DNA from: Koleobacter methoxysyntrophicus
GTDB lineage: Bacteria; Bacillota; Thermosediminibacteria; Koleobacterales; Koleobacteraceae
NCBI RefSeq assembly: GCF_017301615.1
Contig: NZ_CP059066.1
Coordinates: forward strand, 372,001-436,000
DNA length: 64,000 nucleotides
Direction: 5' to 3'
A program made the translations under genes and the position numbers. Below, piece after piece: positions 30,044 to 55,080 of the stretch. Under the pieces are notes generated by a model. The model saw only the letters and a list, made by a program, of their open reading frames with translations, did not search any database and was not told where the DNA came from. The stretch's first letter is position 1. Every line of letters begins with the position of its first letter.

Positions 30044-31164
30044 TTAGAATATGATAGACTCCCCTACAAACATCAGGAAGTTGTCAGTTCCTTCATAAAA
30101 GCTAACCTGAACTTCACCTGCTTCATTTTTAAGCACTTCTATCACCTTGTCAATATCCACACCTTCTACTTCTCCTTTAGCATACAATATGGCATATTCT
30201 GCTCCGGCTCTAACCATTGCCATATTCGCAGGGGCTTTCCAGGTTGCCATTCTGCCCGAATTCCCTTTTTCTTCAACTTTCTTCTTTATCTCCTCCAGAA
30301 TGAAGCTGACATCTCCCGCTTTATCAGGCGGAATCTCAATTCCCAATGCCCCCGGATAAGCGTGATATGGGCTGGGGCAGCACTGTTCAGGGTATATCGC
30401 ACCTTCATCAAGAGCCTTTCTTATAAGCGGTTCCTGCATTGCACAGTTTGTGCTGAATAGAGCGATGTCCTTGCCGTGTTGAGCCACCTGTCTTGGTACA
30501 TCTTCCAGTATAAACTGCTGTGCCCCGGGGATTCCTGCATCACCCATGGGATCTGGTGCAGTAACATCTATAAACTCAATCCCTAACTTTTCACATGTAG
30601 CCCTGAATATGTCCCTTCTCTTTGAAAGGAGCTCATAAGACATATGTCTGGGGAATGAATAGTGAAGGAACTTTTTGGCTCCCATTCTGTGAGCAAGCTC
30701 TATAATGGTTTCTCCCCGCTTCAGGTTGTCGGTTTCCAGACACAGGTCTGCCTTTTCGGCGATCATCAGCGGGTCTTCATGTGGAACACCGGCTATAAAC
30801 AGTATATCGTCCCTAGTTTCCCTGACCTTCTCAATAGCAGCGGCGGTTCCGGGCACTGCCTGACATACAACGATGGCCTTAACTTTGGGATCTGCTGCCA
30901 TGCTTACGATCTGGGTTATAGTTGTTTCCTGCTCCTTCATGAAGTTGTCAGGATATGTTTTATGGATTACCCTCTCCTCACCGTATTTCTTTACTATTTC
31001 CTGGGCTGCCACGTATTCTTCTTCGCCCTGGGACACGGTCCCTGTCATGATGCCTATCTTCCAGTCATCCTCAGCTCCCGTATCCTGACCTCCCTGCTGA
31101 GTACATGCGGCAAGACCCGCAGTCAGCAGTAATACCATCACTAAGGCAAATGTTTTTTCAGCAT
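30044..31164 (-). CDS. DUF3798-family lipoprotein (solute-binding-like), start region frameshifted
   Basis: The mature part is a periplasmic-binding-like fold of the DUF3798 family and opens the importer operon. A lipobox, LLLTAGLAAC, ends the signal peptide. The open frame (30044-31141) can only start at a GTG within the signal peptide and lacks its basic N-terminus. Upstream, ATG 31164 begins M-L-K-K in another frame. Adding one A to the six-A run (31153-31158) would join the two into MLKKTFALVMVLLLTAG, a normal signal peptide. Either the sequence misses one base, or the cell uses slippage on the A run, or the gene is damaged. The substrate is unknown. Confidence 0.82.
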
Positions 31165-31478: not shown

Positions 31479-31508
31479 GTGAATAATATTCTTTTATCGG
31501 GTTATAAT
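31479..31508 (+). promoter_or_regulatory. Sigma-A-like promoter for the structured RNA
   Basis: A perfect TATAAT -10 (31503-31508) follows GTGAAT (31479-31484) with an 18-nt spacer. The expected start is near 31515, exactly where GC content rises. Confidence 0.65.
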
Positions 31509-31514
31509 AACTAT

Positions 31515-31975
31515 CGAAGGGTTCGTAATGGCCGAGCCAAGACTGCTGCAGGATCCTCTGTCGGGGTTCTGCAGCGGTCGGCCAAAGGTTGATGTCGGGT
31601 CGGTGAGGCTCGGCACCAGCCGGAGGGCAGATCCCTGTGGGTCAATTGCCCGGCTCCGGAGCAGTCCAACTACTGCTTCGGGGTCACAGGAGATTCACAG
31701 GGGTCGAGCTAAGACTATCACAGGTTCCGCAGGCTTCTCTTCAGTTTACTTAGTAACTGACGTTTAGCTGGAGGTCTGTGGTGGTCGAGAGATTGCCATA
31801 GGCTTCTCAGGTATCTGTGGTAGTCGAGCGAAGGGTTATCACGGGTTTTGTAACGGTCTGTTGCACCCGAAAGGTTGCAGCAGGCTGTACAGAGATTCGC
31901 GGTGGCCTGTGCGAAGGTCATTACGGGCTCTTAAGCTTTTAAAAAACCTCTATCCTGCGTTGAGATAGAGGTTTT
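31515..31975 (+). ncRNA. Candidate large structured non-coding RNA of unknown class
   Basis: About 430 nt of GC-rich DNA lie between very A/T-rich flanks, with a promoter in front and a 12-bp terminator behind. Several strong hairpins can be read. GGCCGA/TCGGCC (31530-31535, 31578-31583) encloses TGCTGCAG/CTGCAGCG (31544-31551, 31569-31576). A 12-bp hairpin joins 31654-31665 to 31672-31683. CTGTTGCA/TGCAGCAG (31858-31865, 31876-31883) carries a GAAA tetraloop. G-U pairs in these stems favour the + strand. The motif GTCGAG recurs at about 31705, 31784 and 31822 in similar hairpin contexts. No ribosome binding site precedes the only open frame. It is not RNase P, tmRNA or SRP RNA by motif. I cannot match it to OLE, GOLLD, ROOL or HEARO. 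Confidence 0.7.
31943..31975. terminator. Bidirectional terminator between the RNA gene and ald
   Basis: A perfect 12-bp stem, AAAACCTCTATC (31943-31954) with GATAGAGGTTTT (31964-31975), has T runs on both strands. It can end both the + strand RNA and the minus-strand ald message. Confidence 0.88.
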
Positions 31976-31992
31976 ATCGTTTAAATAAGTTC

Positions 31993-33111
31993 TTATTTCA
32001 GTGCCTCCTCTAATGGGGTATAGGGCAGATTCAGGGAATCTGCAACAGCTTTATAAGTCAGCTTCCCGTTTACAAGGTTTACGCCAAGGGCTATTGCCTG
32101 ATCCCTCTTTACAGCTTCTTTATATCCCATATTCGCAATCTTAATGCCGTAAGGCACCGTGCAGTTGGTAAGGGCCAGTGTAGAAGTCCTGGCTACGGCC
32201 CCCGGCATATTTGCAACACTGTAATGGATTACACCGTGTTTTACATAGGTCGGTTCTGCATGGGTTGTAGGATGGTCACAGGTTTCAATGCACCCGCCCT
32301 GGTCGATAGCCACATCCACCACTACAGAACCGGGCTGCATTTCCCTGATCATATCTTCTGTTACCAGTTGTGGTGCCTTCGCTCCGGGGATTAATACCGC
32401 CCCGATGACAAGGTCAGATTCTGTGACAGCCTTTTTAATGTTAAAACTGTTAGACATAAGGGTTTTGACCTTCCCACCAAATATATCATCAAGTTCTCTT
32501 AGTCTGACGGGATTGATATCAATTATAGTAACATCCGCGCCCATCCCAACGGCGATTTTTGCGGCATTTGTGCCTACAGTGCCCCCACCGATAATCGTAA
32601 CCTTTGCCGGAAGTACACCCGGAACACCGCTTAAGAGGACGCCTTTGCCGCCGTTAGGCTTTTCCAGGAAATGGGCGCCAACCTGCACCGACATCCTGCC
32701 TGCAACCTCGCTCATTGGGGTTAATAACGGCAGAGACCTGTCAGCAAGCTGTACCGTTTCATAAGCTATCCCCACAATTCCCCTCTCCAGAAGGGCCTCG
32801 GTCATTTTCTTATCTGCTGCTAGATGGAGATAGGTAAAAAGAACTTGACCGGGCTTAAAAAGGTCGTACTCAGGGGGCAGCGGTTCTTTGACCTTCATTA
32901 TCATATCTGCTATTTCAAAGACCTCTTTTGGGGTATCAAGGATCTTTGCACCGGCAGCGGTGTACTCTTCATCACTAAACCCGCTGCCTACACCTGCATT
33001 TTTCTCGATATATACTTCATGACCGTTTTTAATAAAGTTCTCTACCCCTGCCGGAGTAATGGCAACCCTGTTTTCATTGCTTTTTATCTCTTTTGGGACA
33101 CCGATAATCAC
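31993..33111 (-). CDS. ald: Alanine dehydrogenase
   Basis: Ald oxidatively deaminates L-alanine to pyruvate with NAD+, a usual step in amino acid fermentation. At 372 residues it is full length. It starts with [20 protein letters not shown], has the active-site [12 protein letters not shown] and YLHLAAD segments, and a Rossmann motif [13 protein letters not shown] near residue 174. The GTG start at 33111 follows AAAGGAGACGG. It stands alone between the structured RNA and the divergent two-component system. Confidence 0.97.
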
Positions 33112-33405: not shown

Positions 33406-34644
33406 ATGCTGCAGCACAGCCTGCTTCGCCTTATTGAACAGGACAGGCTCAGGAAGTTGATTGAAAGTTTTACCAGAGCAACCGACATAACTATAGATAT
33501 TAATGACTGTCTGGGGTACCCGGTCGTTTACCATGAATGCTTTTACGGTTTCTGCAAAAAGGTCAGGAGCACCAAAAAAGGGCTTAAGAAATGCATAGAA
33601 TCCAATGCCGACATCGGTTTTAAGACAAAGGAAAGAAGAAAAGCCTTCATCGGGCCGTGTTTTGCCGGTATTGCACTTATGGGGGTTCCGATAGTTGTCG
33701 ATAAAGCGTTCCACGGCTCAATAGTATGCGGCCAGTTTCATTTAAAACCACCTACTGAAAAGATGATAAGCAAGATGCTGTCGGCCATGGATGAAATCGG
33801 TCTTAACGGACATGAAATGATAGAGGATTTTAAAAACATAAAGGTGATACCTAAAGAAAAGTGCAAAGCAGTTTCCGAGCTCATCGAATTCATTGCAAAT
33901 TATATAGCCGAAATAATCTACAAAAACAAAATAGAAAATGAACTAATCAGGCAAAAGCTAAGGGTAATGGAGACAAACCAGACCAGAGTCGAACTGGAAA
34001 AGGCCCTGTGGATATCCGAATTGAAAAAACTTCAGTCGCAGATAAAACCCCATTTCCTGTTTAATACCCTGAACATCATCTCCCGCCTTATAATTATGAA
34101 CGAGAATCATAAGGCCCTCGACACCGTATATGCCCTTTCAAATATTATGAGGTCTAGTTTTGAGGAATCCGACGAATTAATCAGCCTGGAGAAGGAAATG
34201 GATTATGTAAAAAATTACCTTTCCATTCAGAAGATGCGGTTCGGAGAGCGGTTAAGATTCAAAATTGAAATCGATGACAGATTAAGGGGTATCAGCATAC
34301 CGGCCCTAACCATTCAGCCCCTTGTGGAAAATGCCTGCACCCACGGTATCGAACCTAAAGAAGATTTGGGCGAGATAATTATTCAGAGCCAGCTTGCCGG
34401 AAATGATGTTATTATAAAAATAATAGATAACGGTATTGGAATTCCGGAAGAAAAATTAAAGGAAATTCATATGTATTTAACCAATGATAAGGATTTTTAT
34501 GTTGCATCCGAACTAGATGGGTCCCTCGGTCTTAAAAACGTTCATAGAAGGCTCCAGCTGTATTTCGGAAGCGAATACGGGCTTTCAATCACCAGTCGAA
34601 CCGGATGTACCCAGGTCTCGGTTAAGCTGCCATATAATTCTTAA
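33406..34644 (+). CDS. PocR-domain sensor histidine kinase (LytS/YesM class)
   Basis: The 412-residue kinase has an N-terminal PocR ligand-binding domain (residues about 8-165, with Cys residues in GFCKKVRSTKKGLKKC and GPCFAG). A coiled segment comes next, followed by a His_kinase domain with the H-box IKPHFLFNTLN (His about 216) and a C-terminal HATPase with the DNGIGIP N-box. There are no membrane helices, so it senses a cytoplasmic ligand. PocR domains often respond to small organic compounds such as propanediol. It forms a two-component pair with the AraC-type regulator 115 nt downstream. Confidence 0.92.
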   Translation: MLQHSLLRLIEQDRLRKLIESFTRATDITIDINDCLGYPVVYHECFYGFCKKVRSTKKGLKKCIESNADIGFKTKERRKAFIGPCFAGIALMGVPIVVDKAFHGSIVCGQFHLKPPTEKMISKMLSAMDEIGLNGHEMIEDFKNIKVIPKEKCKAVSELIEFIANYIAEIIYKNKIENELIRQKLRVMETNQTRVELEKALWISELKKLQSQIKPHFLFNTLNIISRLIIMNENHKALDTVYALSNIMRSSFEESDELISLEKEMDYVKNYLSIQKMRFGERLRFKIEIDDRLRGISIPALTIQPLVENACTHGIEPKEDLGEIIIQSQLAGNDVIIKIIDNGIGIPEEKLKEIHMYLTNDKDFYVASELDGSLGLKNVHRRLQLYFGSEYGLSITSRTGCTQVSVKLPYNS

Positions 34645-54775: not shown

Positions 54776-55080
54776 AAAACCTTTCATCCCATGGGACGAA
54801 AGGTTTTTTCGCGGTGCCACCCAAGCTGAATTCCGTTTAATTCCGTTTATATCTAAAACAGAATCCCTCTTTAAAGGTACGGGCTAAGATTCACAACAGC
54901 CGATACCCCCTTCCTTTTTACGGTGGAAGTCTCCGGCCTCACCTACTCGGGTATGCCCTTTCGGCTGGCAGCTCCCGGGCCCATTCAGCTATGCCCGTAT
55001 ACACCGGTCTCCCACTGTCACCGGCTCGCTTGGTATCGGTCGGCATACCTACTCTTCCCGTTCAAAGCCTTTAAAACTTT
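54776..55080 (-). promoter_or_regulatory. Tryptophan T-box riboswitch, complete leader
   Basis: The minus-strand leader has a stem I starting AACGGGAAGAGTAGG with the AGTGGGAGACCGG distal loop. The specifier loop reads GAA-UGG-G, with the UGG (Trp) codon at 54981-54983 on the 3' side. Stem II sequences and a stem III follow, then the T-box GGGTGGCACCGCG (54810-54822), which pairs with the uncharged tRNA-Trp end. A terminator (54778-54805) closes it. Low Trp-tRNA charging favours antitermination and trp expression. Confidence 0.93.

Follow-up and report, generated by a model that had tools for sequence, protein, structure and literature searches.

A widespread, multi-armed noncoding RNA of spore-forming anaerobes with a forespore-type promoter consensus

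Between a DUF3798 gene and an alanine dehydrogenase gene of Koleobacter methoxysyntrophicus lies the gene of a large, structured RNA, flanked by a dedicated promoter and terminator; the RNA almost certainly represents a real class. The RNA, of ~420 nt, is widespread in spore-forming anaerobes (more than 100 genera in a sample of 398 genomes), is absent from Rfam and is also new to the literature searched, in which no published description was found (subscription journals and preprints were thinly covered). Little is known of RNA in the spore, for which this molecule offers a concrete subject open to experiment, and it raises the question of whether dormant spores contain a dedicated ribonucleoprotein. 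Positions given below refer to the window, the whole 64,000-nt stretch of DNA that was analysed, unless a contig or locus is named.

Fold, strand and coding potential

The first-pass annotation of this DNA had described a GC-rich, structured block between genes and had placed the transcript on the + strand, and both calls were borne out. Over 31515–31975 the + strand has a minimum free energy of −252 kcal/mol versus −164 ± 6 in dinucleotide shuffles (z −14.2; 0/100 as low), whereas the − strand of the same interval reaches a folding z of just −3.9. The + strand is also indicated because approximately 22 conserved G.U pairs would become A/C mismatches on the other. A protein-coding gene is ruled out, as there is neither a conserved open frame nor codon-phase bias: two overlapping ORFs stay open in just 2/81 and 12/81 homologues, and variation over the three phases is 0.95, 0.96 and 0.99 bits. 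The earlier reading that the interval holds no supported gene stands, no conserved protein frame with codon bias having appeared among the 81 homologues.

The consensus over 81 non-redundant homologues comprises 151 conserved pairs in six main arms arranged round a central junction (Table 1). At least four strong hairpins had been proposed; strong hairpins are present, but the count is six main arms, made up of five hairpin arms and the closing stem P1. The recurring GTCGAG sequences pointed out in the same annotation are located at helix junctions, and its perfect 12-bp terminator lies beyond the closing stem, where it is probably common to the RNA and the convergent alanine dehydrogenase gene. 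Similar linkers, of the GAGCNAA type, separate the arms (GAGCCAA, CGGCCAAA, GGCGGGCA, GAGCTAA, GAGCAAA and GTAGCGTA). At H6 the 3′ segment is 107 nt long in nearly every homologue, and GNRA loops are conserved at H5 and H6, while the remaining hairpin tips are variable. Shortened RNAs of 319–377 nt, mostly with H6 cut down, were observed in Thermoanaerobacter/Caldanaerobacter-type and other lineages (L035, L041, L047, L062 and L135).

Table 1 Features of the RNA gene and its surroundings in the window.
Feature	Position	Strand	Remarks
Window	G000:C1:372001-436000		genome of 3.10 Mb, single contig
DUF3798 gene	30044-31141	-	flank, one side
-35 element TGAATA	31480-31485	+	forespore type GNATA; fixed distance in 81 homologues
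-10 element TATAATA	31503-31509	+	17-nt spacer; CATAATA/CATACTA in most homologues
Expected transcript of RNA gene	about 31515-31978	+	
RNA core	31517-31933	+	~416 nt; nhmmer matches in homologues span the whole element
P1 closing stem	31517-31533 paired with 31916-31932	+	wobbles at 31520, 31522, 31531
Arm H1	31541-31579 (31541-31555/31565-31579)	+	motif G.U/N-N/U.G at 31552-31554
Arm H2	31582-31626 (31587-31601/31607-31621 plus 2-bp base)	+	motif at 31598-31600
Arm H3	31630-31705	+	long, with internal loops; motif at 31653-31655
Arm H4	31708-31829 (31708-31728/31810-31829)	+	splits into H5 and, at about 31730-31770, a variable hairpin
Hairpin H5	31771-31806	+	16 bp; GNRA loop GAGA at 31787-31790; motif at 31773-31775
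Arm H6	31834-31907 (31834-31868/31873-31907)	+	GNRA loop GAAA at 31869-31872
Three H6 motifs	31834-31836, 31845-31847, 31855-31857	+	
Intrinsic terminator hairpin	31943-31975 (stem 31943-31954/31964-31975)	+	perfect 12 bp
Alanine dehydrogenase gene	31993-33111	-	flank, other side

Covariation in the stems, which the first-pass annotation had named as a check, is overwhelming, and the stems are conserved in relatives. RNAalifold applied to 20 sequences returned 149 pairs, 76 of which have changed on both sides. Against a tree-based null, in which the substitutions of each column were replayed on the tree, 65/151 pairs were significant (81 sequences), and in an all-pairs test the eight column pairs that survived correction over every column pair all fell inside the structure (8/8). 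Within the 3′ arm, compensatory changes occurred in 24/30 pairs; sliding the partners by 1–3 columns reduced paired cells from 97% to 36–44% and covariation from 0.61 to 0.09–0.15. A covariance model built on one arm also scores at further arms within the molecule, which is therefore modular, and we infer that it grew by internal duplication.

Distribution, copy number and neighbourhood

The RNA was found by DNA search in 24/41 relatives, and scanning about 85,000 species genomes with a degenerate pattern yielded 117 stretches, 115 of them containing the RNA by nhmmer; one match, L099 from a Hyphomicrobiaceae MAG, was rejected as a chance match to the pattern. Carriers include Moorella thermoacetica, Thermoanaerobacter wiegelii, Caldanaerobacter subterraneus, Thermosediminibacter, Carboxydocella, Acetivibrio, Pelotomaculum, Desulfofundulus and Propionispora. 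R1, a covariance model built on the 3′ arm (H6), identified the RNA in 172/398 sampled Bacillota genomes (120/267 genera), mostly from anaerobic Clostridia-type lineages and the Negativicutes; conservation reaches across orders. In the probable Bacilli tested, whose status was assigned partly via RF00516, R1 gave no match even at E = 1. Copies in MAGs labelled Deltaproteobacteria, Armatimonadetes and Aneurinibacillus (L078, L124 and L131) probably come from mislabelled or contaminated bins.

Genomes carry from one to at least seven copies, some of them in tandem. For example, the JAOAEJ (SKW257) MAG holds up to seven RNA loci (L024, L065, L086, L091, L103, L117 and L125), and several strongly diverged copies per genome, with a GC content of just 0.32–0.39, occur in Clostridium carboxidivorans, C. 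muellerianum and C. drakei (L031, L070, L097, L052, L084, L116 and L130). The loci of C. carboxidivorans and C. drakei are probably diverged members because, although weak (25–51 bits), they match at two or three arms per locus.

Neighbouring genes are ordinary chromosomal ones, syntenic within families and different between lineages, and no constant partner gene, large or small, was found beside the RNA. By sequence reading the commonest neighbours are ABC ATPases, a PEP/pyruvate-binding protein and a copper-amine-oxidase-like SLH protein, and these merely track lineage. As its flanks are ordinary and vary with lineage, the RNA is taken to be a stand-alone gene. The multiple and tandem copies of some genomes would also suit a mobile or phage element, or the whole pattern might be an artefact of palindromic DNA, but either origin is extremely improbable: there were 0 matches in 50,697 phage records, 72,556 plasmid records and 2.9 million viral contigs (the last by exact-pattern scan), which, together with the syntenic chromosomal neighbours and strand-specific covariation, largely refutes them. 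In the window, a histidine kinase gene with a PocR sensory domain (33406–34644, + strand) adjoins the alanine dehydrogenase gene.

Promoter, sporulation and known RNA classes

Upstream of nearly all homologues lies a GNATA element, a spacer of 17 nt and a CATAATA-like element, ending 8–9 nt before a conserved 5′ GGGTTCG. This arrangement is the consensus of the forespore factors sigma-G and sigma-F and, assigned on that consensus, the promoter very probably directs synthesis of the RNA in the forespore by sigma-G and/or sigma-F polymerase. Overlap between the two factors has been reported in a Clostridium relative (PMC7438776). The −35 positions are retained (G in 66/81, A in 76/81, T in 79/81 and A in 59/81 homologues), and a paired −35/−10 model for sigma-G/F scored a mean of 8.54/10 versus 6.92 in shuffles (z 22). 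Rival models gave z values of 2.5 for sigma-A and 4.0 for sigma-E, and those for sigma-K, -H and -D detected no signal upstream of the homologues. When a forespore promoter was defined as −35 GNATA, 16–19 nt and −10 CATANTA with at least 9/10 positions matching, it was present in 46/81 homologues versus 7/313 upstream windows of other genes at the same loci. The TATAAT promoter of the first-pass annotation is therefore correct as to sequence (31503–31508) but not as to type, the hexamer serving with GAATA (31481–31485) as the −10 element in a promoter of forespore type and not in a sigma-A promoter. Vegetative transcription is nevertheless possible, because the −10 in the window also reads as a perfect TATAAT. 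The genome's only strong SASP gene has a near-identical promoter (GTATA...GGTTATATTATAACTA versus GAATA...GGTTATAATAACTA for the RNA gene), and in tandem arrays (L059:673-1581 and L048:206-2607) each RNA copy has its own forespore promoter.

Occurrence of the RNA is also associated with sporulation. SpoIVA is encoded in 167/172 carriers, and the RNA is present in 167/336 SpoIVA+ genomes (50%) versus 5/62 genomes without SpoIVA (8%; Fisher P 6e-11, kinship ignored). Three of the five carriers lacking SpoIVA are <85% complete. One family has the RNA gene immediately downstream of spoIVA, the two being convergent (G068:C6, G315:C1 and G376:C27). The RNA is not required for sporulation in general, since half of the SpoIVA+ genomes, including all probable Bacilli tested, are without it. 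RNAs in spores are believed to be a source of nucleotides for germination (PMC7649253), and the present RNA could by the same token be a stored ribonucleotide reserve with no specific function; this is very unlikely, as such a reserve would have no need for strict wobbles, an arm of fixed length, GNRA loops or conservation across orders.

The earlier suggestion that the RNA falls outside known classes was upheld by a search of all 4227 families of Rfam 15, in which the interval matched no family, whether gathering thresholds or E = 10 were applied; the best score at E ≤ 10 was 19.8 bits versus a threshold of 80. Nothing in Rfam matched at the RNA in 16 homologous loci either. Among described RNAs, endospore formers have CsfG, a noncoding RNA with a gene to itself that sigma-F/sigma-G control (PMC9147052, PMC3574147), to which the present RNA would be similar in its stand-alone gene and, judged by consensus, its forespore promoter. 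CsfG (RF00516, 'ylbH') differs, however, in being represented by a 122-nt model with CU-rich loops, and identity is ruled out by the lack of any RF00516 match at the RNA locus. The two are also distinct in distribution, as RF00516 matches above cut-off occur in 11 probable Bacilli without the present RNA, and the only match in the K. methoxysyntrophicus genome is weak (35 bits, below cut-off) and 1.9 Mb away (G000:C1:2276656-2276739; L168:1767-1850). That match sits on the downstream side of the genome's only strong SASP gene, about 90 bp from the gene's matched part, and similar weak matches in several Clostridia-type genomes suggest that CsfG may extend, in diverged form, beyond the Bacilli. 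Bvs196 (S357) of Bacillus is a forespore RNA transcribed by sigma-F and mainly sigma-G with a stable, conserved fold (PMC9147052). It shares promoter type and fold stability with the present RNA, but is described as 294 nt long, with a fold of −82 kcal/mol and a place between hinT and ecsA in Bacillus, and R1 had no match in the probable Bacilli.

These two RNAs provide the precedent for reading the present one as a base-pairing forespore sRNA that regulates mRNAs. The shared compartment and promoter type (PMC9147052) and the several copies per genome in some species would fit such a role, yet we regard it as decidedly unlikely because little of the conserved sequence is unpaired: ~70% of residues take part in base pairs, the majority of tips vary, the conserved unpaired linkers are just ~7 nt, and conservation sits in wobbles within helices and not in exposed seeds.

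A ribozyme, or an RNA that regulates RNA polymerase or the ribosome in a 6S-like manner during spore dormancy, is another reading that we consider highly improbable. The large conserved fold with its junction and the dormancy-related timing of the promoter are compatible with it, and 6S RNA is also a stable noncoding RNA with long helices. However, the present RNA is ~420 nt and multi-armed, has no RF00013 match and displays no evident bulge resembling an open promoter; a role as a 6S substitute was rejected, the genome encoding a standard 6S RNA at another locus (G000:C1:2446595-2446777, 99 bits). The raiA-motif RNA (ModT), a conserved structured RNA of the Bacillota, affects sporulation in C. 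difficile (PMC11706538). It resembles the present RNA in being conserved and structured, in host phylum and in a link to sporulation, but acts in the vegetative or transition phase through c-di-GMP, and neither the raiA nor the HEARO covariance model matched the present RNA.

Wobble-pair motifs and proposed role

About 22 helix positions hold G.U or U.G in roughly 73–96% of sequences, while the pairs adjacent to them covary freely. One H6 pair, read as G-C in 39 sequences and as C-G in 37, is flanked by a pair that is 93% G.U and another that is 93% U.G. The resulting symmetric unit, G.U/N-N/U.G (5′-GNU-3′ paired with 5′-GNU-3′), recurs within arms at exactly 11 bp. Wobbles are separated only by lags of 2, 9, 11 and 13 bp, and same-orientation pairs at lag 11 number seven versus 0.29 expected (0/20,000 shuffles). 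This test was devised once the pattern had been noticed, with positions and consensus structure drawn from the same alignment, but the effect at lag 11 is far beyond what a post hoc design can account for. In A-form RNA 11 bp corresponds to one turn, so the motifs recur on one face of the helix. The strict 11-bp wobble grammar is a clear instance of a structural code within RNA helices, and one accessible to experiment.

On the strength of this periodic motif, we give roughly even odds to the RNA being a protein scaffold in the forespore or spore core. Very probably transcribed by sigma-G and/or sigma-F polymerase, this large stand-alone noncoding RNA folds into six main arms round a junction with similar linkers, the A-form arms presenting the two-fold-symmetric wobble motif at an 11-bp step on the same face. 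A forespore or spore-core protein might then read the motif in the A-form minor groove, which is wide and in which the guanine amino group of a G.U pair is exposed, and the RNA, as a multivalent scaffold or sponge, would be packaged into the spore. A stronger version, in which the RNA is a star with one protein site per A-form turn that nucleates or titrates an array of spore protein and so organises the spore core, is unlikely. The α/β-type SASPs are one candidate partner in this version, the promoter type being common to the RNA and the SASP gene, and these proteins drive DNA toward an A-like form; they are reported not to bind RNA. We know of no earlier architectural RNA in bacterial spores, so this one, if the version is true, would be the first.

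The main rival to a protein scaffold is packing between RNAs, in which the arms would associate with each other or with other copies through the G.U motifs and GNRA loops to form an RNA-only or RNA-dominated particle. Cryo-EM has revealed that OLE, ROOL and GOLLD RNAs assemble into homo-oligomers (PMC12286853). Similar to these large, ornate and conserved bacterial RNAs, whose mechanisms are partly or wholly unknown, the present RNA is large and multi-armed; its two conserved GNRA loops and rigid 107-nt arm would suit such a particle, and its symmetric motifs could mediate helix packing. Against this, it has no Rfam match to OLE, ROOL or GOLLD and differs from them in promoter logic and in its 11-bp wobble grammar, and its hairpin tips vary except at H5 and H6; a particle of this kind seems rather unlikely. 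A phage context has often been reported for ROOL and GOLLD, in contrast to the present RNA, which has none. The wobbles could also serve nuclease avoidance or RNA–RNA packing and not protein binding.

Elsewhere in the window, a T-box leader (RF00230, 98 bits) was identified at 54789–55074 on the − strand, and a pan motif (RF01749) lies beside a tRNA-Arg (CCG) gene (2384–2471 and 2493–2570, − strand).
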